NCBI GenBank assembly: GCA_015143295.1
Contig: CM026564.1
Location: 12,822,416-12,886,415 of the forward strand
DNA: 64,000 bases
DNA from: Tetracentron sinense
Lineage: Eukaryota; Streptophyta; Magnoliopsida; Trochodendrales; Trochodendraceae
Direction of reading: 5' to 3'
Shown in pieces: positions 4,495 to 52,545 of the stretch (its first letter is position 1; each line of letters begins with the position of its first letter). A program made the translations under genes and the position numbers. Under the pieces are notes generated by a model. The model was given only the letters and a program-made list of their open reading frames with translations, did no database searches and was not told where the DNA came from.

Positions 4495-4633
4495 ATGAGC
4501 GGGAGCAACATAAACTGTGTATTCTACGCCGATTCGTATCATCCGATCCAAGCGGGAAGCATCGACGGCACCGATGTTCTCCCTCACGACAACGCCGTTT
4601 ACAGAGCTCTCCTCTGTTCTTCTGCTGGCCTCT
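4495..4633 (+). CDS. SNRNP35: U11/U12-35K exon 1
   Basis: The ATG at 4495 starts [20 protein letters not shown], and the exon ends ...SSAGL plus one base before donor GTAAAT at 4634. It encodes the family-typical N-terminal block [21 protein letters not shown], which in the human protein reads very similarly. Length is 139 nt, so the intron sits in phase 1. The last base T joins AT from exon 2 to make Tyr. The open frame that simply reads on past 4633 is intron and should not be used. Confidence 0.9.
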
Positions 4634-4726: not shown

Positions 4727-4824
4727 ATGACCCATTTGGGGATCCTAAGGTTATTGGAGACCCTTATTGCACTTTGTTCGTTGGACACCTTTCCCACTTC
4801 ACTACTGAAGACACGCTTCTAAAG
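4727..4824 (+). CDS. SNRNP35: U11/U12-35K exon 2 (RNP2)
   Basis: The exon follows acceptor TTTTGCAG (ends 4726) and stops at AAAG before donor GTTTAG (4825). At 98 nt it restores the frame to phase 0 (139+98=237). It encodes [20 protein letters not shown] and [21 protein letters not shown] is the RNP2 strand of the RRM and GDP..TLFV is characteristic of this family. The upstream intron is 93 bp. Confidence 0.9.
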
Positions 4825-4952: not shown

Positions 4953-5004
4953 GCCATGAGCAGGTATGGAAGGGTGAAGAACTTGCGATTGGTTAGACAT
5001 ATTG
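4953..5004 (+). CDS. SNRNP35: U11/U12-35K exon 3
   Basis: The exon follows acceptor TTACACTCAG (ends 4952) and encodes AMSRYGRVKNLRLVRHI plus the first base of the next codon. It ends before donor GTATTT at 5005. Length is 52 nt (phase 1 exit). The peptide is the first RRM helix and following strand, matching the FSRYGDIRRLRLVRD segment of the human protein. If intron 3 were retained, the frame would close at a TGA about 10 codons later and truncate the RRM before RNP1. Confidence 0.88.
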
Positions 5005-8669: not shown

Positions 8670-9560
8670 AAAACAAACAACCACTCTGCACATCAAAATA
8701 ATCTAATATTACCAAGACCCACTTTGTCCAGGAATATAAGGGCCCTAAGAGTTGGAGGACTATCCTGAATAGTCTGAATCAAACCCGAACTCTGAAGATC
8801 ACCCATAGTTAGCCAAAAAATCAGCAACCTAGTTTGTTTCTCTGTAAATATGAGTAATTGACGAACATATATTGTTAACTTTTTAAAGTTTTTGGTTCCA
8901 GTACCAAACATACCAAGGATGATGACAATTTCCATTCCAAGCTTCTACAAGGGTTTTTGAGTCAGACTCTACCCCAATCTGAATATAATTCATGGAATGA
9001 CAAAGCATGATGCCATCAAGGAGAGCTCTAGTTTTAGCAACATAGCTGGAACAATGGTCATAGAACGAGAAAAAACAGGCTAACATATCACTATGATGAT
9101 TTCGAATGATACCCCCTCGACTAGCTAACCCAGGATTACCTCTAAATGCTCCATCCACATTCAGCTTTATTATTCCTTGATGAGGTCGAATCCACATTCT
9201 GCTAGCCAAGCTTTTGATTCAGGCAATAATAATCTCCGAAGGCTTCCGAGCATTCTTGAATCTTCTCGAACATCTTTCTTTCCAAATTTCCCAAATAATA
9301 AGGAGAGGAAGCAAATTGTACAATTTATTGTGTCTCCTATCATAGGCTCTGAACCATCTCATGAAAAGACATTGAATGGAGTCACTGGGTTGAAGTGCCA
9401 TGGAGCAATACCTAGTAAAATATCTCTAAATAGTAGTTGCAATATCACTTTGATAAAGGTGAGATAAAGATTCAATATTACCAGAATTACAACAAGAGCA
9501 ACGACTAGCTAAAGGAATGCCGAATCATATTATCTGTTGAAATAGCACCATACATTACCT
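8670..9560 (-). pseudogene. LINE remnant: C-terminal RNase H region
   Basis: The minus-strand reading is the C-terminal part of a plant L1-type polyprotein. A linker comes first (LLPLLIIWEIWKERCSRRF at about 9330, typical after the reverse-transcriptase zinc-binding domain). An RNase H-like domain follows: IKLNVDGAFRGNPGLASRGG (catalytic Asp in NVDG), TRALLDGIML and VESDSKTLVEAWNG (catalytic Asp in ESD). After a frameshift near 8890 comes ITHIYRE-like sequence with a trailing DFLA-type motif, ending GLGNIRLF near 8693. The reverse transcriptase and endonuclease are missing, as in a 5'-truncated copy. It is not functional. Confidence 0.72.
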
Positions 9561-11715: not shown

Positions 11716-13937
11716 TGAAAGCATGTCTCTTTTTAATTTTAGAAAAACAATTCTTAGGGGCATACATCGAATCCCAAGATCTGACTACGATTCTAATTGA
11801 TTTTATTCAATGAAGGATAAAATAACAATCACATTTGCGACTTTGATATTGATAAGTCAAATTTACGTCATAGAACGATGCCTGCAAAACTTCGCAAGTG
11901 AAAAGTCTCATTCGCGATTCACATGAACCTTCTTTATCTTCTAAAACTTTTCTCAAATGGAAGTTAATGGCTCTTCTAATTCAAGCTCTATGAACTTTTG
12001 TTCTTTTCTTGAACGCAAGATCCTTTCTTCATTAACAAGATTAGTTCTGATTTTGTTCAAGATTTAGAATCAAGATGAAAGAATATGAGAGTATGACCTT
12101 GCAACTACCACAAGAGGGAGAGGGGGGGCATGAGCTATTGAAGAGGGAGAAGGAAAAAACGTTGGGGAGAGTTAATCCAAAGGGTGGACGTCCCACCCTT
12201 TATATAGATTGCTTACTTGCAATCCAAGACTCTTCTCCCTTATCCTAATCCAATTAGAATTCCCTCAAAAGATTCCTTAATGATAATTCCCAATTAATTA
12301 GGATTTATCTTAGAAAGAAACTAACCTTATCCATTAGTAACAAACTAATCTTATCCTTATCAATTAGGATAATTAATTAGTAACTAACTAATCTTATCCT
12401 TATCTATTAGGATAATTAATTAGTAACTAACTAATCTTATCTTAATAAAGAATCATTAGTAACAAACTAATGCAATCCCTATTAAATAGGGAATCCTTAA
12501 TTAGCAATCAAGTAATCTAATCCCTAACTATAAGGAGATAAGATCACCTAAATAAAGAGATAAGGTTCACCATGAAGTGGGCGTCCCACCCTAAGTAGGC
12601 CCTACTTCTACTCGTCCATTAAAGAGTTCCAAACTCTTTTGGTCATTGATTTGATCTTTATCAAAATCTCCTATGGGTCCTACCCATATGGTTAATCACA
12701 TCCTATGTGATTTCACTTATTAGAGCTTCACTATACCATATAGTGATATACTTAGAGAAATTAATTAATTTAATTAATAATTAAATTAAAAGCTTAAGAA
12801 GAACCTAGTGTGCGGGATCTAAAAGGATCTCCTATTTTCGGTTGTGAGACCAAGTGCTTAACCCTTTTGGTTAAAGCCTTGTTACTAGGAAACACTTTCC
12901 TATAACACCATTAGAATCATAAAATTTTATCTATGTCCTAGGATTTCCACTAATCACAATAATGTCCATTAACACAATGTGACTAACCCCTAGAAATTAG
13001 AGAATTACTTGCAGGTATTTCCATTACAAGATTTGTTTACAGATGCGTTCATCCACTTCTAATATTGTTATAAGCTTACGGGACAATATCTTATACTGTC
13101 TGTAATCCCTAGCTTATAATGAGAACGATTTCTCTTTGATACTTTTAGTTAAACTTGGACTTTCCTAACTATTTTAGAAATTCTTTAAAAGAAATAAAAA
13201 TAATAATTATATTCCTTTTATATATAAAATAAACTTCTCGATAAAACTATTTCATCGATAAATATCAATGCTGGTTTTCCAAGTCCTGTTTGACAAGTAT
13301 CAACTCAATATAAATTACTCTAGAAGAGCAGTGGAATCATTGTGGAGTGTACACACACTTTTTCTAGTATAGCGTACATAACCTAACGAGCCCGTATTCA
13401 GTCCGGTGTGTTGGACATTGACGATTGGTTACATCAAAGCTATATAGGCAAATACTAGAGAAGATGCGACCTCTCAGGTGAAGGACAATCTGTCAAATGG
13501 ATTATCCTAAACATATAGACAGTATATTTCTAAGGGTATCCACTGAGCGATCCAGTTGCAATATAAGTACTTCTTACTTATATCCACATCTTAGTCAAGA
13601 GACCCTTCTCTCAGTAATTGAGATTCATCACTCTATCATATGAAACTAATAATGTATAAATTAGTAAGAATACATTGTCCAGATGTATCCTAAATAACTT
13701 AGAACAACTCTAGGCCTACAAGGAATCGGAAAAACATATTTCCTTAGCAATTAGTTAAAAACTAATTGGATGGTTTTCTTACAATGTTACCTAAGGGATA
13801 AAGTAGTCTCATCTAATGAGATACTTTTAATATGTTACCAAATGTAAAAGACAATGTGTGAATGTAAAATATGCTTTTATTGATCAAGTAAACTAATACA
13901 ATTCCGGAATGACTTTCGTGGGCATATATGTCTAACA
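11716..13937 (-). repeat. Copia A 3' LTR
   Basis: Read on the minus strand it starts TGTTAGACATATATGCCCAC at 13937 and ends CTTTCA at 11716 (2,222 bp). A TATA box lies at 12199-12206 on the minus strand. The polypurine tract (AAGTGGGAGA) lies just upstream of its start, at 13938-13950. It pairs in inverted orientation with the LTR at 24148-26389. The flanking bases GCGTG are not repeated beyond the other LTR (ATGTT), so no target duplication encloses the pair. Confidence 0.8.
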
Positions 13938-13979
13938 ATCTCCCACTTGCACTCAAAGCCAATCTCCTATGTATCAAAT

Positions 13980-16900
13980 ACCCATCATCTCTAGATGTTT
14001 CTTTTAACACCTTTTGAGGAAGAGCTTTAGTAAACGGGTCTGCCACGTTATCCGCTGACGCAATCTTCGATAATTCGATGTCTCCTCTCTTGGCAATATC
14101 TCGAATCAGATGAAATCTCTTTTCAATGTGCTTAGTCTTTTGAAGTGCTCCAGGCTCTATGGCTTGAGCTATTGCACCACTATTATCACAATAAAGTGTG
14201 ATAGGAGATTTAATCGAGGAAACAACACCAAATTCAAGAATGAACTTCTTTATTCACACTACTTCCTTCGCAGCATCACATGCAGCAATGTACTCTGCTT
14301 CAGTTGTTGAGTTAGCAGTTGTTGTTTGCTTGCAACTCCTCCAACTAAAAACTCATTTCCCAAAAGTAAAGACAAATCCTGAGGTGGATCTTCTATCATC
14401 TATTCTGCCTAAAAATCTGAATCTGTGTACCCTACAACAATCAGATCTTCTCCACTGTAAACCAAACAGTGATGCATAGTCCTCCTTAAATACTTGAAAA
14501 CATGCTTAATTGCTATCCAATGCTCAAATTGATATCTACTCATGATACTCACTGCGTGATAAATATCAGGTCTTGTGCACAACATAGCATACATGAGACT
14601 TCCCACTGCTGATGCATATGGGCAATGACTCTTCTGCTTTCTTTCGTCATTAGTCTTTGGAGATTTTGATTTGGAGAGACTAATTCCATGCCTAAAGGGT
14701 AATATCAATTTCTTAGAATTTTCCGTTCTATATTTGCGCAAGATCTTGTCAATATAAGATTTGGGACAATCTCAACATCATTTTCTTTCGATCTCTAAAC
14801 AATTTAAGACCAAGAATATGACAGGCTTCACCAAGGTCTTTCATAGTAAAGTTACAGAACAACCAGATTTTAACAGTTGATAACATTCCTACATAATTCC
14901 CAATGAGTAGAATATCATCTACATAAAGAATTAGGAAAGTTATTGCACTCCCACTAACCTTCTTGTACACACATGCCTCATTCATATTTTTGTGAAAACT
15001 AAACGATTTGATTGATTCATTAAAACGGATGTTCCAACTCCCAGAAGCTTGCTTAAAACCATAAGTGGATTTTATCAATATGCATACTTTATTATTTTGG
15101 CTATAGAATTCAAAATCTTCGGGTTGGTCTATATAAATATCCTCTTGAATGTTTCCATTCAAGAAAGCGGTTTTGACACCCATCTACCAAATTTCATAAT
15201 CATAGTAAGCAGCAATGGATAATAGAATTTTGATGGACTTAAGCATTGCTACTGGTGAAAAGATTTCCTCATAGTCGATACCAGCTCTTTGACTATAACC
15301 TTTCGCCACAAGCCTTGCTTTAAATTCCATCGGATTCACGTTTCCTCTTGTAGATCCATTTGCACCCAATGGGTCTTATTCCCTCAGGCTTTTCAACCAA
15401 CACCATTTGAGTACATGGAGTCCATTTCAGATTTCATGGCCTTATGCCAGTTATCAGAATCAATATCATATATTACCTCTTGATAAGTATAAGGATCATC
15501 ATCTAAGGAATTTGATTCCATAGAATATACCTCATGCTGATAAGACAATCTATCTGAAGGTCGACTAATCCTTATACTTCTCCTAGGCTATTGTGTACTT
15601 AATGGTTCAGTTAAGATAAGTTTAATCATGGTCATTTTATTCTGATTTTGCTCCTCAAGATCTATTCTAAATTCACTTTCTCTATTGAGGAATAAATCCT
15701 CTTCTAGAAAAATGGCATTCCTGTTTACAAACACTTTTTGTTCGCTAGAATTATAGAATAATATCCATGCCTTTCTTTTGGGTATCCTATAAATAGGCAC
15801 TTCTTAGTCTTACTTTCCAACTTGTCAAAGTTCTGCTTTCGCACATGAACTAGACAACCCCATATCCTGACATGCTTAAGACTAGGCTTTCGCCCTATCC
15901 ATAACTCAATTAGAGTTTTAGAAACAGACTTAGAAGGTACCCTATTCAATAGATAGATAGCAGTGTCTAATGCATATCCCCAAAAAGAAATTGAAAAATC
16001 AGTATTATTCATCATTGAACGAACCATATCTTATAGGGTTCAATTTATTCTTTCTGAAACACCATTAAGCTGAGGTGTTCCTGAGGGAGTCCATTGGGAT
16101 AAAATTCCATTATCTCTAAGATAATCCATGAACTCATTCGAGAGGTACTCTGCTCGGTCGGATCTTAAGAGTTTTAATACTTTTACCTGATTGCTTTTCT
16201 ACTTTATTTCAGAATTCTTTGAATTTTTCAAACGATTCCGACTTGTGTTTCATTAGATATATATATATAACCATATCTAGAATAAGCATTTGTGAATGTT
16301 ATGAAGTACATAAAGCCATCTCTAGCTGAATGATTCATGGGTCCACATACATCAGTGTGAATTAATTCCAATATACTAGTGGCTATCTTTGTTTTGCTTG
16401 TAAATGGCCTTTTGGTCATTTTATATTTCAAACAAGGTTCACAAGTTGGATAAGGTTCAACATATAAATGGTTTAAATGAACATCCTTTACCAATCTGTT
16501 GATTCTATCCAAATTGATATGGTCTAATCTGAGATGCCATAAGTATGATGGATTCACAGACTCTCTAACTCTTTTCTGAGGCTTCACACTTATATACTTA
16601 TTATCCTCAATGTTATTAACAGAATTGCATATAAGATCAAGATAATAAAGACCATTAAACAATGTGTCAGAAACAATAAATCTATTATTGTACTTGATCA
16701 CTACACTAGTATCAAAATGCACTGAATAACCAAATAGAAATTAAACTAGAAACAAAAATCAAATTTCTGCGTATGTCTGGCACATATAAACAGTCTTTCA
16801 AAACTAAAATCCTATCTAAAACAAATTCTAAAACATAAGTCCCGATGGCGATCGCAGCAACACTTGCTTCCGTTCCCATCCTTATATTGAATTCTCATCA

Positions 16901-17869
16901 CTGAGCTTTCTGCTCTCTTGAAACCCCTGTAGCATATTACAAATATGTGAGGTAGATCCAGTATCTACACACCAAGAGTTAGAGGAACCAACAATGAAGT
17001 TGGATTCAATGATAAAAGATTCGAACATACCTTCCAAAGGTTTGTCCTTGAGGGATGCTAAGTAAACTCGACATTGCCTCTTCCAGTGACCTAGTTTCTT
17101 GCAATAGAAGCAGACATTCTGATTCTTATCCTTGTCCATCTTCTCAGAAGATGCTTTCTTGTTCTTTCCTTTCTTGCCTTGGAGGAAATTAGAGAAATTG
17201 AGCTTCTTCTTTTTTTTGCCTTTGCCTTTAGGCTTAGGCCTCGAATGTCCAACTCCCCCTCCCATATATGTAAAGAGCTTAGTACGCTTTATAAGGTCTT
17301 CAACTCCTTGCAACATGTTTAGGAGCTTTGGCAGAGTAGTCTCCAACTTGTTCATGTTGAAATTCAACACAAACGCAGAAAAGGATTCCGGGAGAGAGTT
17401 TAGGATCGCATCTATTTAACTTGATCAAGATTTACACCAAGAGTCAAGAGTTCATTAATGAACCCCATCATCTTGATGACATGCTCCGGACTGGGTTTCT
17501 ATCAGACATCCTGGTTCCCATTAGTCCTTTCATAGCCAACTGCCTAGCAGTCCTATTCTGTTTCCTAAACATCTCCTTGAGATTTGTCATTATGTCCTTA
17601 GCAGTAGTGAAACCCTCGTGCTGCTGTTGAAGGACATTTGACATACATGCAAGAATGTAGCATTTGGCCAAACTATTTGACTCATGTCACTTTGAGGCTT
17701 TCTCAACATTCTTTGGGGTCTGAATTGCCTCATCAAACTCTGGATAATCAGAAGTAAGAACATTAGTTATCTTCTGAGATATTAGCACAATGTCAAGGTT
17801 TCTTTTCGAGTTCACAAAATTAGGATCAGTCAAACGATTCTCATCTAAAATCTTGGAAATGAGATTTAT
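13980..17869 (-). pseudogene. Copia A gag-pol polyprotein, decayed
   Basis: Minus-strand Ty1/Copia polyprotein in the usual order. Gag comes first; its expected start codon near 17869 reads ATA instead of ATG, and blocks follow such as KILDENRLTDPNFV and HEGFTTAKDIMTNLKEMF. A CCHC knuckle CFYCKKLGHWKRQC lies near 17090. Protease is CVDTGSTSHICN near 16950. Pre-integrase and integrase are LWHLRLDHINLDR and ELIHTDVCGPMN (16300-16560). Reverse transcriptase contains FLNGNIQEDIYIDQPEDFEF and YVDDILLIGN (14900-15180). RNase H ends in ADPFTKALPQ near 14030. At least six stops or frameshifts separate these blocks, so it is dead. It is very similar to Copia B, which is inverted relative to it. Confidence 0.82.
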
Positions 17870-19613
17870 GGTTATCTATACAATAAAGCATAAATAATTA
17901 TATTATAATTCACATATATATTCATCGGATTTTGAGATTTTAAATTTGCGATGATCCTCTCATCTTTCTTCAAATTTCATAATTCCCTTCATTATATGAA
18001 ATTAGGAAATAAACATTTTATTTCAGATGAGTATTGGAATCCTCATAATACATATGTAATATTCCATTTTAGGATAATACTACACATGTACTACAAGGTG
18101 GATAGTAACTATCCATCAAATTGAACATCTCATGCATAACTCCTTATGTAACTCAGTGACTTCCAATTTTCTTGCGACTTCCAAGGACAACATGATTGGC
18201 ACAGTTTCAGCCGCCATGTTTCCTTGTTTAAGTGAAACCACCAATTTTTCTGGTTCGTCATATGATCATGTAAGGTTGTGCCGCAATTTCAGTTGACACT
18301 CCTTATCAGGCCATATACAAACTTATCTACAACAGAAATAAGGCTCTAGGAGTTTAATTCAGACTGAATCATGTCAGTACCTTTTGGCAAGACAAGACTC
18401 AGGCTAATTAATTCCTAGTTTTATTGATAAAGGAAGGTCATAGGATTAATAATCTCATTTAGTATCACTTAATATTTTTCTTGAAGGGAATAAAATAAAC
18501 ATGCATAATCATCATATAAATTATGAAAATTTTCGATAATAGAATTATCAAGGAGTGATTAACTCCCACTAGCCCTCACAGGGGGTTTTGATCACTAGGG
18601 TTTTCACCTTATGGTCAAAACCTACTCATCCCTGTAACCTTAGGGTATTTGGATGTCAGTTTAATGATCCATCTTATTTACCAATCTTTAACAGCGTTTA
18701 ATGTCTTTTCAGACATGATTATCCAATAATCTTGTAAGCAAATGTTTTACGTAAAAATCTCCACATGGGTCACAAACTCCACGTCCAAAAGAGTACTATT
18801 AATGTGTTATGTCTAAATATAAACAATTTACAACTAAACATAACTCATTAATAGGGGTATAATTCAATTACCCTAAATTATCATAAAAAGCGATAATCAT
18901 AATTATCTAAGCTTCCGGGCTTAAAAGAAATATTATTAATCATCACATTAACAATAATATTATAATTATAACAATATTATAATCTCACAATAAGTTTACA
19001 AAAATCATACGACCTTATTTAATTACAACAAGGGAATTAAATAAAGCTCTACAACTATTGAAGATCTTCTATCTCGCAATGGTTTTCCTGGAAACTCCTT
19101 CGGTTGATTTTTTTCACCATAAATCAGCAATCCTATTCTAAAATAAGAAAAAGGGGGAGGCGGAGGGAAAGAGAAGGAGATATGATTTGTGGAACCCATC
19201 CAGCACATACAATAATAATTATTTTATTTTATGCTAGTCTGGGGCTCTCGAGAATAAATTAAACAATTTAATTTACTATGCTAAAAAGGATCTCTAAATC
19301 CTCAAAAGGCTTTAACCAAATTTATATCTCTATATACTTATCCCTATTAAATTTCGAGAGGTTTTGAAATCATCCATAACCTAATTTGTCTCACTAATTA
19401 TAAGGGATTGATCAGAATCAATTATATCCATCCTAAATTCAAAATAGAGGGGGACCCTTAACCCTAGGTATTTAATGATTATCTAATCATCAAGTTATGA
19501 TTATTAAATCATCAAGAATCAAAAGATTCAATCCCATAGGGTGACCGAAATTCATAGGGGGTTTATCTTGATATAAATAATGATTAAGAACAATAAAATC
19601 AAAGAGAAGCATA
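17870..19613 (-). other. Copia A long 5' untranslated leader
   Basis: About 1.7 kb between primer site and gag with no coding potential. Its half nearest gag (to about 18353) is matched in inverted orientation by Copia B from 19719. The remainder has no partner because B is truncated there. Small open frames in it show no protein signature. Confidence 0.6.
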
Positions 19614-19631
19614 GCCAGGGCTTTGATACCA
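19614..19631 (-). other. Primer binding site of Copia A
   Basis: The minus strand reads TGGTATCAAAGCCCTGGC, complementary to the initiator tRNA-Met 3' end as in most plant LTR elements. An LTR end should follow at once, but the sequence instead passes into a MITE-like fragment, showing that the 5' LTR has been lost. Confidence 0.75.
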
Positions 19632-19632
19632 C

Positions 19633-19718
19633 CAAGGTTTAAAAAAAGGCTTTCGGACACTATAACGGACATAGCCGAAACCTTTACATAACGCCATTAC
19701 ATAACGGTTTCGGCCTTT
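19633..19718. mobile_element. MITE fragment captured between Copia A and B
   Basis: CAAGGTTTAAAAAAAGG and the following TTTCGGACAC..TAACGGACA..GCCGAAACCTTTAC match the left 90 bp of the complete element at 40322-40923. The right end is missing and the DNA passes straight into Copia B leader. Short shared bases at each edge (CCAA and ACTCC) suggest end joining. Confidence 0.6.
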
Positions 19719-20199
19719 ACTCCTAGAGCCTTATTTTTAGTGTAGTTAAGTTTGTATATGGCCTGATAAGGAGTGTCAACTGAAATGGGGGCACAGTCTT
19801 ACTTGATCATATAACGAACCAGAATAATAAGTTTCACTTAAACAAGGAAACATGACGGCTGAAACAATGACAGTCATGTTGTCCTTGGAGGTCGTAAGAA
19901 AATTTGGAATCACTGATTTACATAAGGAGTTATGCATGAGATGTTCAGTTTGATAGATAGTTATTATCCACCTTGTAGTACATGTGTAGTACTATCCTAA
20001 AATGGAAGATTACATGTGTATTATAAGGATCCCAATACTCATTTGAAATAAAATATTTATTTCCTAATTTCATATAATGAAGGGAATTATGAAATTTGAA
20101 GAAAGAGGAGAGGATCATCGCAGATTTAAAATCCCAAAATCCGATGAATATATGTGTGAATTATAATGTAATTATTTATGCTTTATTGTGTAGATAGCC
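19719..20199 (+). other. Copia B 5' leader, truncated
   Basis: It matches the Copia A leader in inverted orientation from ACTCCTAGAGCC onward (A side ends at about 18353). No primer site and no 5' LTR precede it. Confidence 0.65.
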
Positions 20200-23100
20200 A
20201 TGAATCCCCTTTTCAAGATTCTAGATGAGAATCGTTTGACTGATCCTAATTTTGTGGACTGGAAAAGAAACCATGACATTGTGTTAATCTCTCAGAAGAT
20301 AGCTTATGTTCTTACTTCTGATTATCCGGAGTTTGATGAAGCAATTCAAACCCAGAGTAGGTTAAGAAAGCCTTAAAGTGGCATGAGTGAAATAGTTTGG
20401 CCCAATGCTACATTCTTGCATCTATGTCGAATGTCCTTCAACAGCAGCACGAGGGTTTCACTACTGCTAAGGACATAATGACAAATCTCAGGGAGATGTT
20501 TGGGGAATAGAATAGGACTACTAGGCAGTTGGTTATAAAAGGACTACTTGGAACCAGAATGTCTGATGGAAGCCCAGTTCGGGAGCATGTCATCAAGAAG
20601 ATGAGGTTCATTAATGAACTCTTAACTCTTTGTGCAAATCTTGATCAACAGAGTCAAACGGATGCAATCCTAAACTCTCTCCTGGAATCCTTTTCTACGT
20701 TTGTGTTGAATTTTAACATGAACAAGTTGGAGACTGCTCTACCAGAGCTCCTAAACATGTTGCAAGAAGCTGAAGACCGTATGAAGCGTACTAAGCTCTT
20801 TGCATATGTGGCAAAGGGAGTTGGACCTTCGAGGCTTAAGCCTAAGGGAAAAAGCAAGAAAAAGAAGAAGTCCAATTTCTCCAAGTTTCTCAAAGGAAAG
20901 AATAAGAAAGCATCTTCTGAGAAGAAGGACAAGGATAAGAAACAGAATGTCTGCTTCTATTACAAGAAACCAGGTCACTTGAAGAGGCAATGTCGAGTTA
21001 CTTAGCATCCCTCAAGGACAAACCTTTGGAAGGTATGTTCGAATCTTTTATCATTGAATTCAACTTCATTGTTGGTTCCTTTAACTCTTGATGTGTAGAT
21101 ACTGGATCTACCTCACATATTTGTAATATGTTGCAGGGTTTTAGAAGAGCTGAAAGCTCAGTGATGGGGAAGTCAATATAAGGATGGGAATGGAAGCAAG
21201 TGTCGCTGCGATCGCCATCGGGACTTATGCTTTAGAATTTGCTTTTAATATGATCTTAGTTTTGGAAGACTGTTTATATGTGCTAGACATGCACAGAAAT
21301 TTGATTTTTGTTTATAGTTTAATCTCTATTGGTTATTCGGTGCATTTTGATACTAGTGTATTTATCAAGTACAATAATAGTTTTATTATTTCTGGCACAT
21401 TCTTTAATGGTCTTTATTATCTTGATCCTATATGCAATTCTATTAATAATATTGAGGATAATAAGTCTACAATTGTGAAGCCTTAGAAAAGACGTAGGGA
21501 TTCTGTGAATCCAACATACTTATGGCATCTCAGAATAGGTCATATCAATTTGGATAGGGTCATCAGATTGGTAAAGGATGGTCCTTTAAACCATTTATAT
21601 GTTGAACCTTATCTAACTTGTGAACCTTGTTTGAAAGGTAAAATGACCAAAAGGCCATTTACAGGCAAACCAAAGAGAGCCACTAGTATATTGGAGTTAA
21701 TTCACACTGATGTATGTGGACTTATGAATCATTCGTCTAGAGGTGGCTTTATCTACTTCATAACATTCACAGATGATTATTCTAGATATGGTTATATATA
21801 TCTAATGAAACACAAGTTGGAATCATTTGAAAAGTTCAAAGAATTCCGAAATAAAGTTGAAAAGCAATCAGGTAAAAATATTAAAACTCTCAGATTTGAT
21901 CGAGGAGGAGAGTACCTCTCGAATGAGTTCATGGATTATCTGAGAGATAATAGAATTTTATCCCAATGGACTCCCCCAGGAACATTGCAGCTTAATGGTG
22001 TTTCAGAAAGAAGGAATTGAACCTTATTGGATATGGTTCGTTCAATGATGAATAATACTGATTTGCCAATTTCTTTTTGGGGATATGCATTAGAGACTGC
22101 TATCTATCTATTGAATAGGGTACCTTCTAAATCTATTTCCAAAACTCCATTTGAGCTATGGATAGGGCGAAAGTCTAGTCTAAAGCATGTCAGGATATGG
22201 GGTTGTCCAGTTCTTGTGCAAAAGCAGAACTTTGACAAGTTGGAAAGTAGGACTGAAAAGTGCCTATTTATAGGATACCCAAAAAAAATGCATGGATACT
22301 ATTTCTATAATCCTAGCGAACAAAAGGTGTTTGTAAACAGGAATGCCATTTTTCTAGAAGAGGATTTATTCCTCACTAGAGAAAGTGGATTTAGAATAAA
22401 TCTTGAGGAGCAAAATAGAATAAAATGACCATGGTTAAACCTATCTTAACTGAACCTTTAAATACACAACAGCCTAGGAGAAGTACAAGGATTAGTCGAC
22501 CTCCAGATAGATTGTCTTATCAGCATTAGGTATATTTTATAGAATCAGGTCCCTAGATGATGATCCTTGTACTTATCAAAAGGTAATATGTGATATTGAT
22601 TCTGATAATTGGCATAAGGCCATGGAATCTGAAATGGACTCCATGTACTTGAATGGTGTCTGGATCTTGGTTGAAAAGCCTGAGGGAATAAGACCCATTG
22701 GGTGCAAATGGATTTACAAGAGGAAACGTGGATCCGATAAAAAGGTAGAGACCTTTAATGCAAGACTTGTGGCGAAAGGTTATAGTCAAAGAGCTGGTAT
22801 CGACTATGAGGAAACCTTTTCACCAGTAGCAATGCTTAACTCTATCAGAATTTTGTTATCAATTGTTGCTTATTATGATTATGGAATTTGGCAGATGGAT
22901 CTCAAAACCGCTTTCTTGAATGGAAACATTCAAAAGGATATTTATATGGATCAGTCCGAAGGTTTTGAACTCCATAGCCAAAATAATAAAGTATGCAAAT
23001 TGAAAAAATCCATTTATGGTCTTGAGCAAGCTTCTCGGAGTTAGAACATCAGTTTTGATGAATCAATCAAATCGTTTGGTTTTCACCAAAACATGGATGA

Positions 23101-24094
23101 TGCATGTGTATACAAGAAGGTCAATGAGAGTGCAATAACTTTCTTAATTCTTTATGTGGATGATATTATACTTATTAGGAATGATGTAGGAATGTTATCA
23201 ACTGTTAAAATCTGGTTGTCATGTAATTTTGCTATTAAAGACCTTGGTGAAGCCTTCTATATTCTTGGTCTTAAATTGTTTAGAGATCGAAAGAAAAGGA
23301 TGCTGGGATTGTCCCAAGTCAATTATATTAACAAGATCTTACGCAAATATAGCATGAAAAATTCTAAGAAAGGGATATTACCTTTTAGGCATGGAATTAA
23401 TCTTTCCAAATCAAAGTCTCCAAAGACTGATGATGAAAGAAAGCAGATGAGCCATTACCCATATGTATCAGCAGTGGGAAGTCTCATGTATGCTATGTTA
23501 TGCACAAGACCTGATATTTGTCACACAATGATTATTGTGAGTAGATATCAATCAAATTTGGATCCTGAGCATTGGACAACAGTTAAGCACATTTTGAAGT
23601 ATTTGAGCAGGACTATGCATCACTGTTTGATTTACAGTGGAGAAGATCTGACTATTGTAGGGTACACAAATTCAAATTTTCAAGCAGAATAAATGATAGA
23701 AGGTCCATCTCAGGATTTGTCTTTACTTTTGGGAAATGAGCTTTTAGTTGAAAAAGTTGCAAGCAAACAACAGCTGCTGACTCAACAACTGAAGTAGAGT
23801 ACATTGCTGCATGTGATGCTGCAAAGGAAGTAGTGTGGATAAAGTTCATTCTTGAACTTGGTGTTGTTTCCTCGATTGAATCTCCTGTCACACTATTGTG
23901 ATAATAATGGTGCAATAGCTCAAGCCATAGAGCCTAAAGTACATCAAAAGACAAATTTCATTGAAAGGAGATTCCATCTGATTCGAGACATTGTCAAGAG
24001 AGGAGACATCGAGTTATCCAAGATTGCGTCAGCGGATAACGTGGCAGACCTGTTTGCTAAAGCTCTCCATAGAAGGTGTTTGAAAAACATCTAG
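20200..24094 (+). pseudogene. Copia B gag-pol polyprotein, decayed
   Basis: Plus-strand Ty1/Copia polyprotein starting at ATG 20200 (MNPLFKILDENRLTDPNFVD). Gag runs to the zinc knuckle near 20960, where the second Cys is Tyr (CFYYKKPGHLKRQC), so the knuckle is damaged as well as the frame. Protease CVDTGSTSHIC is near 21100. Integrase has LWHLRIGHINLDR, HTDVCG, the second Asp in RFDRGGEYLSNEF and a following Glu region near 22010. Reverse transcriptase has KTAFLNGNIQKDIYMDQ and YVDDIILI (22900-23180). RNase H has TTEVEYIAACDAAKE and ends KALHRRCLKNI at the stop by 24094. Stops at about 20374, 21003, 22018 and 23042 and frameshifts inactivate it. Confidence 0.85.
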
Positions 24095-24130
24095 AGACGA
24101 TGGGTATTAGATACATAGGAGATTAGCTTT

Positions 24131-24147
24131 GAGTGCAAGTGGGAGAT
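24131..24147 (+). other. Polypurine tract of Copia B
   Basis: GAGTGCAAGTGGGAGAT lies directly before the LTR start TGTTAGAC. The same tract is present at the mirror position in Copia A. Confidence 0.65.
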
Positions 24148-26389
24148 TGTTAGACATATATGCCAACGAAAGCTATTTCGGAATTGTATTAGTCTGCTTA
24201 ATCAATAAAAGCATATTTTACAGTCACACATTGTCTTCTACATTGGGTAACATATTAAAAGTATCTCATTAGATGAGACTACTTTGTCCCTTAGGTAACA
24301 TTGTAGGAAAAACATCCAATTAGTTTTTAATTAATTGCTAAGGAGATGTGGTTTTCCGGTTCCTTGTAGACCTAGAGTTGTTCTAACTTATTTAGGATAC
24401 ATCTGGACAATGTATTTCTACTAACTTACACATTGTTAGTTTCATATGATAGAGTGATGAATCTCAATCACTGAGAGAAGGGTCTCTTGACTAAGATGTG
24501 GATATAAGTAAAAATACTTATATTACAACTGGATCGCTTAGTGGATACCCTTAGAAATATACTGTCTATATGTTTAAGGTAGTCCATTTGACAAATTGTC
24601 CTTAACCTGAGAGGTCGACATCTTCTCTAGTATTTGTTTATATAGCTTTGATGTGGCCAATCGTTAATGTCCAACACACTGGATTGAATGTGGGCTCGTT
24701 GGGTTATGTACGCTATACTAGAAGAAGTGTGTGTACGCTCAACAAGGATTCCACTACTCTTCTAGAGTAATTTATATTGAGTTGATATTTGTCAAACCGG
24801 ACTTGGAAAACCAGCGCTGTTATTTATCGATGAAATAGTTTTATCGAGAAGTTTATTTTATATATAAAAGAAATATAATAATTATTATTATTTCTTTTAA
24901 AGAATTTCTAAAATAGTTTTGAAAGTTCAAGTTTGACTAAAAGTATCAAAGAGAAAGGGTTCTCATTATAAGCTAGGGATTACAGACAGTATAAGATATT
25001 GTCCTGTAAGCTTATAACAATATTAGAAGTGGAAGGACGCATCTGTAAACAAATCTTGTAATAGAAATATCTGCAACTCAAATTTCTAGGGGTTAATCAC
25101 ATTGTGTTAATGGGCATTATTGTGATTAGCGGAAATCCAGGGACATAGATAAAATTCTATGATCCTAATGGTGTTATAAAAAAGTGTTTCCTAGTAACAA
25201 GACTTTAACTAAAAGGGTTAAGCACTTGGTCCCACAACCGGAAATAAGAGATCCTTTTAGATCTTGCACACTAGGATCTTCTTAAAGCTTTTAATTTAAT
25301 TATTAATTAAATTAATTAATTTCTCTAAGTATATCACTATATGGTATAGTGAAGCTCTAATAGGTGAAATCACATAGGATGTGATTAACCATATGGGTAG
25401 GACTCATAGAGGATTTTGATAAAGATCAAATCAATGACTAAAAGAATTTGAAACTTTTTAATTGGCGTGTGGAAGTGGGGCCCACCTAGGGTGGGATGCC
25501 CACTTCATGGTGAACCTTATCTCTTTATTTTGGTGATCTTATCTCCTAATAGTTAGGGATTAGATTGTTTGATTGCTAATTAAAGATTCCCTATTTAATA
25601 GGGATTGCATTAGTTTGTTACTAATGATTCTTTATTAAGATAAGGATTAAATTAGTTAGTTACTAATTAATTATCCTAATAGATAAGGATATGATTAGTT
25701 TGTTACTAATTAATTATCCTAATTGATAAGGATAAGAATAGTTTGTTAATAATGGATAAGATTAATTTCTTTCTAAGATAAATCCTAATTAATTGGGAAC
25801 TATCATTAAAGAATCTTTTGAGGGAATTTCTAATTGGATTAGGATAAGGGAGAAGAGTCTTGGATTGCAAGTAAGCAATCCAAGGAATCTATATAAAGGG
25901 TGGGACGTCCATCCCTTGGATTAATTCTCTCCCGAATGTTTTTTCTCTCTCCCTCTTCAATAGTTCACGCTCCCCCTCTCCCTCTTGTGGTAGTTGTAAG
26001 GTCATACTCTTATATTCTTTCATCTTGATTCTAGTTTAGATCTTGAACAAAATCAGAACCAATCTTGTTAATCAAGAAAGGATCTTGCGTTCAAGAAAAG
26101 AACAAAAGATCGTAGAGCTTGAATTGGAAGAGCCATTAATTTCCATTAGAGAAAAGTTTTAGAAGATAAAGAAGGTTCGTATGAATTGCGAAAGAGACTT
26201 TTCACTTGCAAAGTTTTGCGGGCATCGTTCTATAACGTGGATTTGACTTATTAATATCAAAGTCGCAAAAGTGATTGTTATTTTATCATTCATTGAATAA
26301 AATCAATTAGAATCGTAGTCAGGTCTTGGGATTCAATGTATGCCCCACCAAGAACTGTTTTTCTAAAATTAAAAAGAAGCGTACTTTCA
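24148..26389 (+). repeat. Copia B 3' LTR
   Basis: It starts TGTTAGACATATATGCCAAC, carries a TATA box at 25890-25897 (TATATAAA), and ends CTTTCA (2,242 bp). It is similar throughout to the Copia A LTR in the opposite orientation. No 5' LTR partner exists for this copy. Confidence 0.8.
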
Positions 26390-28889: not shown

Positions 28890-29204
28890 ACTTACTCTTA
28901 ACTTTGGTAACATCTTTGGATTTGGATACCATAATATAAGAAGCTTAGCCACGATGAAGTACGACACCCAACCAGTACTCTAGTGGCTTAGAACAATATT
29001 AGGCTTACAAGGAACTAGAAAATCATATCTCCTCGCAACCTTTGCATGATTTTCTTACAATGTTACCTATGGAACTTTATGTCATCATCAAATGAGACAA
29101 TAATTATTATAAATACCCTTTAGGGTTGATTGAGTGAATATGATACTTCTTTAATCAACATAGAAAAGTCTTATATTGGCTCTTGATGGCATATTTGTCC
29201 AACA
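28890..29204 (-). repeat. Copia-type LTR fragment
   Basis: Read on the minus strand it starts TGTTGGACAAATATGCCATC at 29204 and resembles the starts of the 2.2-kb Copia LTRs elsewhere in the window. Only the first ~300 bp remain. Confidence 0.5.
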
Positions 29205-31100: not shown

Positions 31101-31838
31101 CTTGCGATAAGCAATAGGTAACTCAAAATCGGAAGCAATATGAATAATAATAAGAGAAGTATGAACATGACGAAGGGAAGGTGATGAAGTATCTAGTGGA
31201 GTGGTCTGCGGGGAAGAATGTGGTAGAGGCGCATCAGAGAGAGAACGAGGCGGTTGTCAACTAGAGTACATGAGAAGCTCCTTCTACTGCGGAAGATCCC
31301 CATAAAACAGGTAAAGGCAAAGAGACAGTAGGCACAATACAAGGTAAAGGCAAAGAGACAGTAGAGACAGTAGGAGTAGGAGAGAAATATGGTACTGTCT
31401 CGAAAAAGGTAACATCCAAAGAGACAAAGAAGCGACGAGACTAGGGATTGTAACACCGATAGCCCTTCGATGCACTAGAATAATCAACAAAGACACATCA
31501 AATTGCTTTATCATCCAATTTCTGACGACTTGGATGAAGATCCTGAATAAAGAAGGCACAACCAAATACCCGTGGCTCAATGGGAAAAATAGGGGCATGA
31601 AGACAAAGAAACTTATAAGGTGAGAGACCATCAAGAATATGAGAAGGTGCCTGATTGATGAGAAAACATGCAGTGAGAAGGGCCATGGACCAAAAAGGCT
31701 TAGGCACTTGCATGCCTCGTAACAAGGAGCGAGTGACACCCACTAAATGACGATTCTTGCGCTCAGCAACACCATTTTGTTGAGGGGTGTACAAACAAGT
31801 AAGCTGATGAGAAGTACCATGAGTGTGAAGATACTACA
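31101..31838 (-). pseudogene. Copia C pol, downstream part
   Basis: The minus strand reads YLHTHGTSHQLTCLYTPQQN then GVAERKNRHLVGVTRSLLRG, the C-terminal integrase core with the catalytic Glu in VAERKNR. WSMALLTACFLINQAP and FGCAFFIQDLHPSRQKLDDK follow, then decayed linker sequence to about 31200. The reverse transcriptase is absent. It continues the integrase at 32940-33300 after a gap of roughly 40 codons where foreign DNA has replaced it. Confidence 0.75.
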
Positions 31839-32939
31839 TCGCTCCGGATTCATCGGTCAGGAGTGAAGAAATGCAAATCAAGGAGAATCCAATCCCTTCC
31901 TTCTGGAACTGGAAACCGGAAACGAGATAAACGTATCTAACCCTCCTATCCAACGTTAGTCAAAACCTTACCCGATGACTTGAGTATCCCCCATGTCTTT
32001 TAGCTCCTTGCATTGGCAGCAAACCAATATTTGCATGTTTGGAATGATCCTAACCGTCTAATCAGAAAGCCTTAATAAAAAAATACACATGGGCAACAGT
32101 CCAAAATCAAGCGGGCTAAAGTGTGTGATCCCGTATGCTTTCGATATCAAATTGATCTATTAGTGCTCTCAAGAGCTTGAGTAGACCGTTCGTTCAACTC
32201 GCCTGAAGGAGACTAGACTTCTTTAGATAGAGAGACTCACTTCGTAACCTTCGCTCCCTTTGCACTCGTTTAGCAGTTGCTCTTCTTATTCATGATTATA
32301 CCGTTCGCAGGCATTCTTGGTCAAACTGGCTGGCTTGGGGCCAGGGGGGTTCTTTGAGCATTGATTGCAGAATCTGTTCTGATTTATTGCCAGTGGACTA
32401 TTTTCTTCGGCGAGCCCTTTGTCATCCTTAGGTTATTGGCGGATCGGTTTCCGTCTTTATGAAGGTAAGGTCTCTCGTTGAGTGTGCAAGCATCTTAGGT
32501 GTAATATGATACGCATACGCATGCGTAAGCATATCCGCTTATAGTCGCATGGGGTGCGGTGAGATGGATCATCCGTGGTTGGAATCAAGTCTCTACTGTT
32601 CCTGGCTATAATATTCACCATTATCTTTCATTTCTTTAAAGTTTGTCAACAATTTTATCACTTCATTGTGATAGAGAGTAACATTAGAAGAGTTTTTTTC
32701 TCTAGAGATAAAATGACCAAAGCTTCGGTTGCTTCCACTTGTGGCCTTCGACCGACAGACAGGGAACCCCACCTCTTCTTCTCTTCATGTATGTGGGTTG
32801 TCTGTGCTCTAAGCCCGGCCCACGCGCGGTTAGGAAGATTGGCCGCAATTTGAGCGGTACCACCCACCCTACCCTACCACCTATAGGCGGTCGTCCGTCC
32901 TACAGCCGCCCTCGAACAAAAGGAGCAGTTAAATACTCA
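31839..32939. other. Foreign insert in Copia C, possible organellar DNA
   Basis: About 1.1 kb that interrupts the integrase region and is clearly less AT-rich than its surroundings. It has no poly-A, no terminal repeats and no transposon protein signature. Its even base composition and lack of plant-TE features recall plant mitochondrial intergenic DNA, but no mitochondrial gene is recognised. An organellar origin is therefore only an inference. Confidence 0.35.
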
Positions 32940-34830
32940 CAACCATTATATTAAGACCACCAAACTGGGTACGAACCATAGTATGAAATTCTTGGAATTC
33001 AGAAAACAGCTCATCCTTAAACTTAATAAGGTAAACCCAAGTAGCCTGAGTGTATTCATCGACAAAAGTAACATAATAACGAAAACCATCACTAGAGATA
33101 ACCGGAGATGAACCCCAAACATTAGAATGAACAAGCTCAAAAGTAGAACGACATCTATGCATGCGAGAAGGATAAACAATGCGAACATGTTTAGTAAGCT
33201 CACAAATATCACATTGAAAAGTAGATGAAGAACACAGTTTACTAAAAGTAGAAATCAAAGAACACGGTCTGATCCAATATGCCCAAGCTTGGCATGCCAT
33301 AAACGATAGGTATCATGAGTAACATCAATTGAAAAAGGAAAAGCAGTAGCAGCAGTAGCTAGGACACGATTAGGAGCATAATCAGTATCAAGGTAGTACA
33401 GAGGTAGTACAGTGCCTCTTTTCACGCCTCTACCATCAATCCTTCTTGTAGTCAGGTCCTGAAAGAGACAATGAGAAGGATGAAACATATCACAACAATT
33501 GAGTTTGGTAGGAAGACTACTAACTGAAAGAAAGTTAAAAGATAAATGAGGAACATGTAAAACATTAGATAAAGAGAGTGACAGACATACAGGAAAGTTC
33601 CCTACTCTTAAAACAGGAGTAACGGAACCATCAGCTAAGCGAACTTTGGCAGTAGGAGATGGAGGTGAATAAATGGAATAACCCTGTAACTCACCAGTCA
33701 TATGAACAGTGACTCCAGAATCAATCACCCAGCTAGGGGAAGAAGTTGATGTAGTGGTAGCATAGGCTGAGGGAGCACAGATACCTGAGCCAGCAAGTGA
33801 AGAGGAAGTAGTCACTCTACAGACAGAACTCAGTGCAAATCATCTCAGCAACCTGAGCTCTCAAGGACTCCAAAGGATCACTCGCAGTAACTGAGGTGGC
33901 AGGCGAAGAATCAATCCTAGGAGTCGTAGTAAAATGAGCAGCAGGATGAGATGGGTAACCATAGTTATGCAGATGATAACAATGATCACGATCATGTCCT
34001 ACTATATCACAGTAAGCATAAGGAGTAATAAATCTGCTACAACCACGTCCGCCACGACCTTGACAACTCCTATCAGTCCCCTTACCACGTCCTGGAGGAT
34101 GAAAATCAGTAACAAAGGCAGTATGATCCTGATGGAGCATAGGAGGGGAACTTGAAGACATAACAGCCCATCGGTGTTCTTCATTGAACACAGTGGAGTA
34201 CACCGATCGAAGAGAGGGCAGAGGAGATATGGCAAGGAGCTAAGTGCGTAATTGCTCAAATTTGACACTAAGACCATCCAAGAAATCATAAATGTGATGA
34301 CGCTCAATTCGCTTCGTCATAACATTTGCAGAAGCAATGGACAATTAAAAAAAAGGCTCATAATGGCTCAATTCTTAACAACGGCGTTGAAGAGCCCCAA
34401 AATAATTAGAAATACGCATATCCCCTTACTGAAAGTGAACAATCTCACGAGTAAGTTGATAAATCTGAGCATCATTCCCCACTAAGGCATAAGTCTGAAT
34501 AAGAGCATCCCAAAGCTCATGACAATCCTTATAGAAAATGTAATTCCTGGCAATCTAATGCTCCAGAGAATTAAATAACCAACCCAAAATAATGCAATTC
34601 TCGGCATTCCATGTAGCAATCTTGGAAATACCTGTTTCCGGCTTAGGGGTTTTACCATCAAGATATCCCCTCTTAGAACGACCCCCAATATACAGCTCAA
34701 TAAAGCTTCATCACACAAGAAAATTATCATTATTGAATTTAAAATTGGTGATAAAGTGGACAACGGAGTCGGAAAAAGTCGGCGGAGTAAGAAATTTAGT
34801 ACCATAGGAGCAACTTAAGGTGAAAAAAAT
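32940..34830 (-). pseudogene. Copia C gag, protease and integrase start
   Basis: Minus-strand Copia of a different lineage from A and B. Gag runs 34830-33830 (FKFNNDNFLVW, IATWNAENCIILGWLFNSLE, DFLDGLSVKFEQLRTQLL), with a damaged knuckle YAYCDIVGHDRDHC. Protease is SWVIDSGVTVHMTG near 33730. Pre-integrase is YRLWHAKLGHIGSDR near 33300. After a frameshift the integrase reads CDICELTKHVR, FELVHSNVWG and FVDEYTQATWVYLI, ending near 32942 at the foreign insert. The first catalytic Asp of integrase is replaced by Asn (HSNVWG). Stops and frameshifts make it non-functional. Confidence 0.78.
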
Positions 34831-38680: not shown

Positions 38681-38686
38681 TGGGCG

Positions 38687-39790
38687 ATGCTTGGTTACAA
38701 TTTCGAATCCGTTATTAAAAGTTCGTAGTTCTATTTGGATCGATAGATCGAGGGCACTCTTCTTGTCATTCTCAGATTGATTGGTTTGAGGATTCAGACG
38801 ATGCTGAGCACTGGAAATTTTCAAAGATGCGCCTAAACACTTCCATATCGTCCTCCAAAAATGATTGATAAACTTCGTATGATAGTCCTCGGTAACTCAT
38901 GTTGCTACACAAACTCACTGAAATAAAGGGAATCCACATGTGTCGCATCCGTAGATTGTCAGTAAGTAATAAAGAGAGCCATTTTTGAGAAATGTCCACC
39001 AAAACAAATATAAAATAGTACCTGGCCACGTTCTTCAACAATCCTAGAACGAAATCCATACTGATGTCTTCCCTAGGTTGACTGGCAATGGAGCTTACAA
39101 CCAAATGTTTTGTAATCAACCCTTGGAGGTCTTGCATACGTCGATCGATGATACCATGAACCCCATGTTCTATAATCAACCCTTAGAGGTCTTGCATACG
39201 TCGGTCGATGATAATATGAACATCTTGTGCATTTCGGTCAGGCGTTGCTTGGTTACAATTTTGAATCCGTTATTATATGTTCGTAGTTTTGTCTGGATCG
39301 ATAGACAGAGGGTGCTCTTCCTGTCATTCTGAGATTGATTGGTTTGAGGATTCAGACGATGCTAAGCATTGGAAATTTATAAAGATGTGCCTAAACACTT
39401 CCATATCGTCTTCCAAAAATGACTAATAAACTTCGTACGATAGTCCTCGGTAACTCGTGTAGTTGCACAAACTCACTGAAATAAAGGGAATCCACATGTG
39501 TCGCATCCATAGACCGTCAGTAAGTAATAAAGAGAGCCATTTTCGAGAAACGTCCACCAAAACAAATATAAAATAGTACCTGGCCATGTTCTTCAACAAT
39601 CCTAGAACGAAATCCATACTCATGTCTTCCCTAGGTTGCGGCTATGGAGTTTACAACCACGTGTTCTGTGATCAACCCTTGGAGGTCTTGCATACGTCGG
39701 TCGATGATACCATGAACCCCATGTTCTGTGATCAACCCTTGGAGGTCTTGCATACGTCGGTTGATGATACTATGAACATCTTCTGCATTT
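38687..39790. repeat. Tandem duplication of ~555 bp in Gypsy pol
   Basis: 38687-39241 and 39242-39790 are near-copies (CTTGGTTACAATTT, GATTGATTGGTTTGAGG and ATAAAGGGAATCCACATGTG recur in order). Inside each is a further ~63-bp duplication around GGAGGTCTTGCATACGTCG. On the minus strand each copy encodes the same integrase fragment. Confidence 0.75.
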
Positions 39791-44627: not shown

Positions 44628-44698
44628 TAACCGGTGCTTCACGTGGTTATGCTTTTGTTGAATACGAAACTGAAAGAGAGATGCGGCGTGCATATGAG
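44628..44698 (+). CDS. SNRNP35: U11/U12-35K exon 4 (RNP1)
   Basis: The exon follows acceptor TGATTTGCAG (ends 44627) and ends ATGAG before donor GTTCTG at 44699. The incoming G from exon 3 plus TA makes Val. The peptide reads VTGASRGYAFVEYETEREMR then RAYE, with RNP1 as RGYAFVEY. It continues exon 3 without a gap, and 52+71 nt returns the frame to phase 0. The exon is isolated between a 39.6-kb intron and one of at least 19.3 kb, so it would be easy to miss. Skipping it would shift the frame because 71 is not divisible by three. Confidence 0.9.
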
Positions 44699-46589
44699 GT
44701 TCTGTGATCATCTCTGATACTAAAACATTGAACTTATTGTTCTCTTTTCTTAATCTGAAAAAAATTGCTCCTTATTGTTCATAAAATTTGATCACACTTT
44801 TCAAGTAAAAATAGAAATTGTGATGCTTGCTATCGGCCCTAGATAAACATATCTTGGTGGTAGGCATTCATTGCAGACTTATTTTTGGATGTAAAGTTTA
44901 GAATGGAATTCATGAAGTCCATGCTCTCTAATCTTCCATTGTGCTACATTTCAGTTGTCCAGATGTTGTGCTTGACTTTCAATAAGATGGAGATCCATTG
45001 AACAAGAGCTTTTGGAATAGTGGAAATCCAGGCACTAGTATCATGCAGTTCATTGGAATGTTGCGTGTAAATTTAAAACTGATCAGTGCTGGGTTTTGGG
45101 AATTTAAGGGAAAGGAAATAGAGATCATGGAAAATTGTTGTGGATTCAGAAGGAGTCAAAGGCTAACAGGGATGGATAATTGAGAATAATTAAGGAAATA
45201 GAAATCTTGGTAGGGATGGCAAAATTATAGGGTTAGGAAGAGGGTTTGGTGTGGTGATGGTAAGGAATGGTGTTCCATAGTTGCAAGGAAGCTATGTACA
45301 AGGTGGGAAGTGTGCTTCCCAGGAAGCTCACTTCCTAGGAAGCTCGTTTCCTAGATTCGCTTCTTAGGATGCTCGCTTACATCATGTCCTGTTTAGTGAT
45401 CAAATGGGCCATGTATCTAGGAAGGGATGGGATAGGCCCGAGTCTAAAGCCTGCAACATAGATCTTAAGCAAGTATCGTTAGATTGAAACCAAAGGCACC
45501 TATTTCTCCACAAATATCTCATGTAAGATAAAATTTAAGATATGGTTAGCCATACTAAAACAATGGGAATGAGATACCTATATCTCATTTCTCACTTCTC
45601 ATTTCCTAAGGATTTTTTGAGCCTTGCTTCCCGCTTCTCACTTTGGTAATTATGTGATGTTCATCTGGGCGTTGGGATTGGGTTACGAAAAGTTTGGGAA
45701 AGATATCCATGGGACATTCTGTAGTGTTGCATCAGGTATTGCATGTAAACTGTAACGACCCAAAATCCCCCCTAGGAGTTACAGAGACTTTAGATGTGAC
45801 TATCCTAACTTGGCAAACCATCCTGCAATATACAAGGCATACTAAATAGTGAACTTGAAAAATTTTCATTTAATATCAATTGTATTCCAAGTTCAAGAGT
45901 CAACTAAAGGCTACATCAAAATTAAACCTGTATATGAGATCTATCACTTGAGTTACCCACTCAAGCCTACACCAAATTCCCAAAATACATGTCACTCTCT
46001 CCCTCAAACCTCAACCATAAGGCCACATGTCGAGGCCCCTATCATCTACATGCTAATCTCCAGTAAGCTCCTGTTGCACCCTTGGTTTCGGAGCACGATC
46101 ATTTTACCTGAAAACTACCGAAATAACAATTCGGCTGAGCATTGAATACTTAGCGCATACAAACTACTAACCAACAATGTTTTAAAACATTTACATCTAT
46201 AATAACATGCTAGCATATGCATAGAATAAAGCAGTTCAAAATGGAACTAAGTAAGATTAACCATACAGTAATGAGAGTGCAGAAGTCATAATACATCAAT
46301 ACTTTTCTAATCTTAATTCAATTTCATATACATATACTCAAAATCGCATGCTTTTTGAACTTTACTTTAAAACCATACTTCATCGTTTACATCATGCATT
46401 ACTCTTTTCATTTTCCATATTCACCATGTGCATCACTCCTTACAATCATTCACACATGCACTTTCTTTCATTTTCCTTAACTAGTGCCCGGACTATGGTG
46501 GAACGGAACACACTAGCATCTTTCACTTTGAGACTTGTGAGTTCCTTATTAGTCTTATGATTTCCACGCTTCACTTACTTCATTTGGCT

Positions 46590-47385: not shown

Positions 47386-47470
47386 TATGAGCTTATGAGA
47401 CTTATGAGCAGTTATGAGCTTTTCAGGTACCCGTACTTATGAGAAACCTCGGTCATACAAGACATATATA

Positions 47471-51899: not shown

Positions 51900-52545
51900 T
51901 CCACGTAGCACCCGAACTATGAAGTGGACGGACATACTAGCTTCTTTACTTTCATTAACTAGTACCCGAACTATGAAATGGACGGTCATACTAGCGTGTT
52001 TCACTTGCTTGACTAGTACCCGAACTATGAAGTGGACGGACATACTAGCGTCTTTACTTTCATTAACTAGTACCCAAACTATGAAATGGACGGACATACT
52101 AGCGTATTTCACTTGCTTGACTAGTACCTGAACTATAAAATGGACGATCATACTAGCGTATTTCACTTTCATTAACTAGTACCCGAACTATGAAATTGAC
52201 GGACATACTAGCGTATTTCACTTGCTTGACTAGTACCCGAACTATGAAATGGACGGACATACTAGCGTATTTTACTTGCTTGACTAGTACCCGAACTATG
52301 AAATGGACGGTCATACTAGCGTCTTTACTTTCATTAACTAGTACCCGAACTATGAAATTGGACGGACATACTAGCGTATTTCACTTGCTTGACTAGTACC
52401 CGAACTATGAAGTGGACGAACATACTGGCGTATTTAACTTGCTTGACTAGTACCCGAATTATGAAGTGGACGGTCATACTAGCGTCTTTACTTTCATTAT
52501 CTAGTACCTGAACTATGAAATGGACGGACATACTAGCTTCTTATG
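51900..52545. repeat. 54-bp minisatellite, about 12 copies
   Basis: Same unit as 46590-47385 with about 12 copies, so the two LTRs of one insertion differ in copy number. Open frames on both strands are a by-product of the period. Confidence 0.85.

Follow-up and report, generated by a model that had tools for sequence, protein, structure and literature searches.

The 64,000-nucleotide stretch of Tetracentron sinense DNA analysed here (the window) contains the first four exons of a gene for the U11/U12-35K (SNRNP35-like) protein and, within its third intron, two degenerate Copia retrotransposon copies lying head to head, arm A on the minus strand and arm B on the plus strand (Table 1). Joined together, exons 1 to 4 form one open frame, separated by GT/AG introns of 93, 128 and 39,623 bp. 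The 120-residue product has its best match among solved structures in the U11/U12 35 kDa protein (8r7n_C, E 1.3e-27) and also matches RRM_1 (6e-16), a homology that rests on the first 120 amino acids, which are all that the window contains. These flanking exons, with their GT/AG borders and single open frame on the plus strand, bear out a preliminary description of this DNA, which had placed both copies in a sense intron; judging from the gene structure only, the locus is presumably transcribed. None of the motifs typical of the later part of the U11/U12-35K protein was found in the six frames of the window, so intron 4 probably extends beyond its end. The gene has two very large introns, one of 39.6 kb and another, beyond 44698, probably of at least 19.3 kb.

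Table 1. Features of the U11/U12-35K locus, the inverted Copia pair and the associated MITE copies (positions within the window)
Feature	Position	Strand	Basis
Exons 1-3, U11/U12-35K (SNRNP35-like) gene	4495-4633, 4727-4824, 4953-5004	+	
Intron 3, U11/U12-35K gene, 39,623 bp, GT...AG, contains the Copia pair	5005-44627	+	
Arm A: degenerate Copia copy, from part of the leader to the 3' LTR end	11716-18353	-	90.3% identity to arm B; Pfam
3' LTR of arm A, 2222 bp, TTTCA exactly at the outer border	11716-13937	-	
Putative unpaired 5' leader of arm A (bulk of the spacer), counterpart lost from arm B	18354-19632	-	Orientation and motif
Primer-binding-site-like motif TGGTATCAAAGCC, 12/13 to TGGTATCAGAGCC	19619-19631	-	Motif match
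hAT-like MITE fragment (terminal 85 bp) with its outer end preserved and its interior lost	19633-19717	+	Match to fuller copies
Putative deletion breakpoint, where the MITE interior meets the arm B leader; about 3 nt (ACT) common to both sides	19718-19721		Junctions compared by eye
Arm B: degenerate Copia copy, 5'-truncated within the leader, to the 3' LTR end	19719-26389	+	Self-BLASTN; Pfam
Polypurine tract AAGTGGGAGAT preceding the LTR in arm B	24137-24147	+	Arm A same by alignment
3' LTR of arm B, 2242 bp, TGTTAGACATATATGCC start, TTTCA end	24148-26389	+	
Fuller MITE copy, 602 bp, perfect 8-bp target duplication CTTCCTTC	40322-40923		
Exon 4, U11/U12-35K gene	44628-44698	+	
Fuller MITE copy, 353 bp, target duplication 7/8	58989-59341		

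A BLASTN comparison of the window with itself aligned the two arms in inverted orientation at 90.3% identity over 6711 columns, and returned exactly the coordinates and the collinear inverted copies that had been described. In a global alignment, arms A and B have 6049 matches, 411 transitions and 141 transversions (K2P 0.090), and are thus separated by 552 aligned differences, together with 33 gaps. The alignment of the arms along their whole length, proposed earlier as a check, showed that this divergence is even: chi2/df was 0.96 (p 0.61) in 50-column bins and 1.03 (p 0.41) in 100-column bins, and in coarser bins 1.24 (p 0.19) at 250 columns and 1.48 (p 0.12) at 500. The arms differ by 9.05% in the internal part and by 7.0% in the LTR. 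When the C/T and G/A differences were polarised as C-to-T or G-to-A changes, 207 fell in arm A and 204 in arm B, so the two arms look about equally old. In the arms the CpG observed/expected ratio is 0.43 and 0.39, and the leader has 0.44; four other stretches of the window gave 0.54-0.65. Low values in the arms and leader would be expected of old, methylated elements.

Both arms carry a polypurine tract followed by an LTR of the TG...CA type, as Copia elements do, and the LTR lengths agree with the 2.2 kb given in the preliminary description. The outermost ends of both arms are exact LTR 3' ends lying beside unrelated sequence: beyond the outer borders, flank similarity scored 20 in inverted and 19 in direct orientation, with a shuffle mean of 20. 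The outer 5-bp flanks are unequal (GCGTG and ATGTT) and, as already described, there is no target duplication around the pair. The 5' LTR had likewise been reported missing from both copies, and no match to the LTR was found in the spacer between the arms at an E value of 1e-3 or below. Neither arm has the two LTRs and the 5-bp target duplication of a Ty1/copia element; since the spacer lacks an LTR match and the outer flanks differ, we regard the arms as truncated copies, not complete elements. Elsewhere, a minus-strand fragment at 28988-29204 shares about 65% identity with the opening 240 bp of the LTR of the arms, and is perhaps an older related LTR head.

Eight of the 10 ORF pieces examined in the arms gave Pfam matches to Copia-type domains and the other two gave none, the types found being gag, zinc knuckle, pre-integrase, integrase, SH3 and reverse transcriptase (RT). 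Matches in arm A were to RVT_2, gag_pre-integrs and zf-CCHC (3 of 5 pieces), and in arm B, where all five pieces matched, to Retrotran_gag_2, gag_pre-integrs, rve, SH3_retrovirus and RVT_2. The order in arm B, with gag, integrase and then RT, is that of a Copia pol, and arm A is collinear with it; by their resemblance, the arms may belong to an Angela/BARE-like lineage. Both arms are damaged, in part at the same places: a stop in the integrase occupies the identical alignment column in both, and inspection by eye of the part between RT and RNase H revealed a further stop and a frameshift common to both, the alignment having no gap between columns 3857 and 4146. These lesions, at least three in number, indicate that both arms derive from one already defective parent. 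A scripted lesion list returned one shared in-frame stop and, opposite sense codons, 6 stops in A and 5 in B, private counts that are rough because the scripted frame of B is unreliable past column 3994. Nine further same-column stop triplets were excluded from the shared count on account of differing phases or a position near or past the RNase H end, two of which sit at the frameshift and the stop judged shared by eye. Coding gaps make up 22 of the 33 gaps between the arms, and 18 of the 22 are not a multiple of three. Differences are spread evenly over the three codon positions (9.0, 9.7 and 9.1% over 3020 consistently framed columns, with 855 columns of inconsistent frame left out).

The spacer, previously put at about 1.37 kb, measures 1365 bp and does not look like an independent element; its interpretation as a diverged LTR or a separate element was rejected, given that the short matches found were only at E 0.02 or worse. 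A primer-site motif is found on arm A's side only, with no LTR adjoining it, and arm B is without one. Because this motif is oriented like arm A and continues into it with no visible break, the stretch preceding the MITE is most simply read as the 5' leader of A, which would be about 1.76 kb long in all, counted to a gag start judged by eye in arm B. None of 2000 dinucleotide-shuffled spacers contained a match to TGGTATCAGAGCC with one mismatch or fewer; primer-binding sites of this type, which are common in plants, presumably correspond to Met-tRNA. Searches of the window brought up neither a tRNA nor, at gathering score, any Rfam family; among viral contigs, a search for relatives of the family gave 2 pattern matches, neither of them a relative.

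Between this putative leader and arm B lies the end of a MITE, whose superfamily we take to be hAT. The MITE begins CAAGG, and both fuller copies have inner inverted motifs; terminal inverted repeats and the 8-bp target duplication are present in the fuller copies, and the fragment in the spacer retains one end only. Its outer terminus at 19633 is preserved, and its inner side is cut and joined to the arm B leader. As a transposed MITE had sequence on both sides, arm A probably once extended past it, and a spacer made up of a putative A leader, a primer site and a truncated MITE end points to a later central deletion. The natural end of a minus-strand cDNA lies near the primer-binding site, and the putative A leader ends one base from the motif, so that it first resembled the fold-back product of a stalled cDNA; that reading was abandoned once the fuller copies showed this stop to be the outer end of the MITE.

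The Copia pair consists of two decayed retrotransposons in inverted orientation within a giant intron, an arrangement of an ordinary kind and with a legible history. We favour, with a probability of about 0.6, an origin by two Copia insertions followed by a central deletion. Two members of one already defective subfamily, trans-mobilised in one burst, would have inserted separately in intron 3, in opposite orientations and at about the same time; later, a hAT-like MITE would have landed beside the primer-binding site of A, at the expected end of the 5' LTR; and one central deletion would have fused the MITE interior to the arm B leader, taking with it the remainder of the MITE, the 5' LTRs of both copies, the upstream leader of B and anything between, to leave a decaying head-to-head inverted repeat. 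We infer the order of these events, the prior presence of the 5' LTRs and a deletion by end joining. The preliminary description had held that these are not two ordinary insertions, a view that our results do not sustain: unequal outer 5-mers are what two separate insertions predict, the absent enclosing duplication counts against a single insertion, and the content of the spacer points to the central deletion. Moreover, the outer borders are exact LTR ends beside unrelated flanks, which argues for integration at both ends and not for a segmental inverted duplication. Sequence loss by deletion is known from inverted Alu pairs (PMC3215922). On a small scale, the pair would illustrate clearly how the centre of two inverted retrotransposons may be lost, the truncated MITE serving to mark the breakpoint.

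Some observations nevertheless count against two insertions: that the MITE should lie a single base from the primer site is a coincidence without explanation, the putative leader of about 1.76 kb is long, and the shared lesions and equal age of the arms would be more directly explained by a single event. In such an event, a defective Copia RNA would have given a fold-back palindromic cDNA with the LTR 3' end (U5) at both ends, which integrated once, the MITE and a partial central deletion coming later. The LTR 3' ends on both outer sides, the lack of any 5' LTR and an even divergence free of codon-position bias are also as this history would have it, but the pair has no enclosing 5-bp target duplication, the end of A at the primer site is accounted for by the MITE terminus, and no precedent appeared among the literature matches listed, in a weak search judged by titles and abstract starts; we consider it unlikely. 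The shared lesions could also have arisen if one dead copy had been duplicated in place and in inverted orientation, by template switching or break repair, or if two copies had been homogenised by gene conversion. A duplicated segment, however, should carry A's flank, and the borders instead stop exactly at the LTR end with unrelated flanks; as for conversion, the divergence is not significantly patchy and so gives no sign of recent tracts, and we hold this pair of mechanisms to be less probable still. Long repeats are difficult to assemble, but an assembly artefact is scarcely credible here, since arms separated by 552 aligned differences and 33 gaps cannot be a simple false inverted duplication and the centre of the pair is explicable piece by piece.

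Whatever their origin, the arms retain a considerable capacity to pair. In sense RNA they could form 6049 Watson-Crick and 231 G-U pairs over 6601 aligned positions (95.1%), and an antisense transcript would give 180 G-U pairs; the longest perfect pairing run is 78, and 80 runs reach at least 21. Duplex energies computed for 17 blocks, each of 400 columns at most, sum to -9919 kcal/mol, versus -3066 kcal/mol when those blocks fold on themselves. Matching blocks range from -451 to -646 kcal/mol, whereas 16 non-matching block pairs have a mean of -118 and a strongest value of -144; as these bind much more weakly, the similarity of the arms is far from chance. The preliminary description had allowed that the arms might prove too diverged to pair, and this is not the case. 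By these calculations a hairpin in the intron is physically plausible, and under the two-insertion history it would be a by-product.

A function for such a hairpin is compatible with any origin. The pair might have been retained because the hairpin brings the sides of the giant intron closer together, or because siRNAs derived from it silence the Copia family. The pairable fraction, perfect runs and block energies given above are in favour of this, and a precedent exists in maize Mu killer, an inverted MuDR derivative whose hairpin RNA silences MuDR (PMC2563033). Mu killer, however, is described as a perfect 2.4-kb hairpin (PMC2563033), whereas the arms here differ at 9.7% of positions, and their even divergence leaves no conserved segments apparent; we consider retention for function very unlikely. 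Slightly more doubtful again is the specific form in which the promoter of the minor-spliceosome gene would transcribe the pair into a 6.6-kb hairpin, diced into siRNAs that would act as a resident silencer of its own Copia family. A possible signature of transcription was also considered and set aside: in both arms, the host sense strand shows more C-to-T than G-to-A changes (pooled odds ratio 1.31, p 0.009; single arms, p 0.057 and 0.090), and we do not rely on this excess because the same bias was scattered in four other repeat pairs of the window (rate ratios 0.75, 1.60, 0.77 and 1.02, from small counts). Should the hairpin form, it would serve as a natural experiment on the way in which plant spliceosomes get across an intron of 40 kb where about 6.3 kb of double-stranded RNA could arise, the host gene being itself one for a splicing factor.

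The pair shows both similarities to and differences from several known systems: (i) Noble of grapevine (PMC2576258) and BARE of barley (PMC3735527), both Ty1/copia elements, are described with the Copia domain set, polypurine tract, TG...CA LTR and pre-gag leader also seen in the arms. In contrast, both arms here are dead and without 5' LTRs. In the Noble report, a perfect TGGTATCAGAGCC motif opens the leader between LTR and ORF, and the leader measures 269-695 bp in 40 copies (PMC2576258), versus about 1.76 kb for the putative leader here. (ii) Alu pair exclusions, as reported, are alike in involving inverted copies of the same family and loss by deletion, but concern Alus of 0.3 kb (PMC3215922) and not plant LTR elements of 6.7 kb. 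(iii) Mu killer is likewise an inverted transposon repeat (PMC2563033), and a hairpin RNA is possible in principle for the pair here too; the arms here, however, are 9.7% diverged and intronic. (iv) In Chloranthales and magnoliids, long introns have been reported as common, with LTR elements apparently the major contributor in Chloranthus spicatus (PMC8626473); here too a giant, retrotransposon-rich intron lies in a conserved gene, with the difference that two copies form an inverted repeat. Among the literature matches listed, judged by titles and abstract starts, none reported this locus.

The window has other features. Intron 3 also contains, to the left of arm A, an ORF at 8886-9218 on the minus strand with an RVT_3 (RNase H-like) match (E 7.5e-13). 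The remains of a second, different Copia element lie at 31287-34239, also on the minus strand, recognised by a Pol_BBD match and by tblastn with the integrase and SH3 pieces of arm B, and are accompanied by a primer-site-like motif at 35380 (2 mismatches). A tandem duplication at 38683-39796 has a unit of about 557 bp, the copies being 91% alike. Direct repeats of about 1.5 kb at 45750-47469 and 51078-52615 are 89.5% identical over 1491 columns, and 94.2% over the 814 columns that precede a satellite; each contains this 54-bp minisatellite, in 14.8 and 11.7 copies respectively. Beside one of them, at 51074 on the minus strand, is a primer-site-like motif with 2 mismatches, an arrangement which suggests that the two repeats are the LTRs of a minus-strand retrotransposon with the satellite inside its LTRs.
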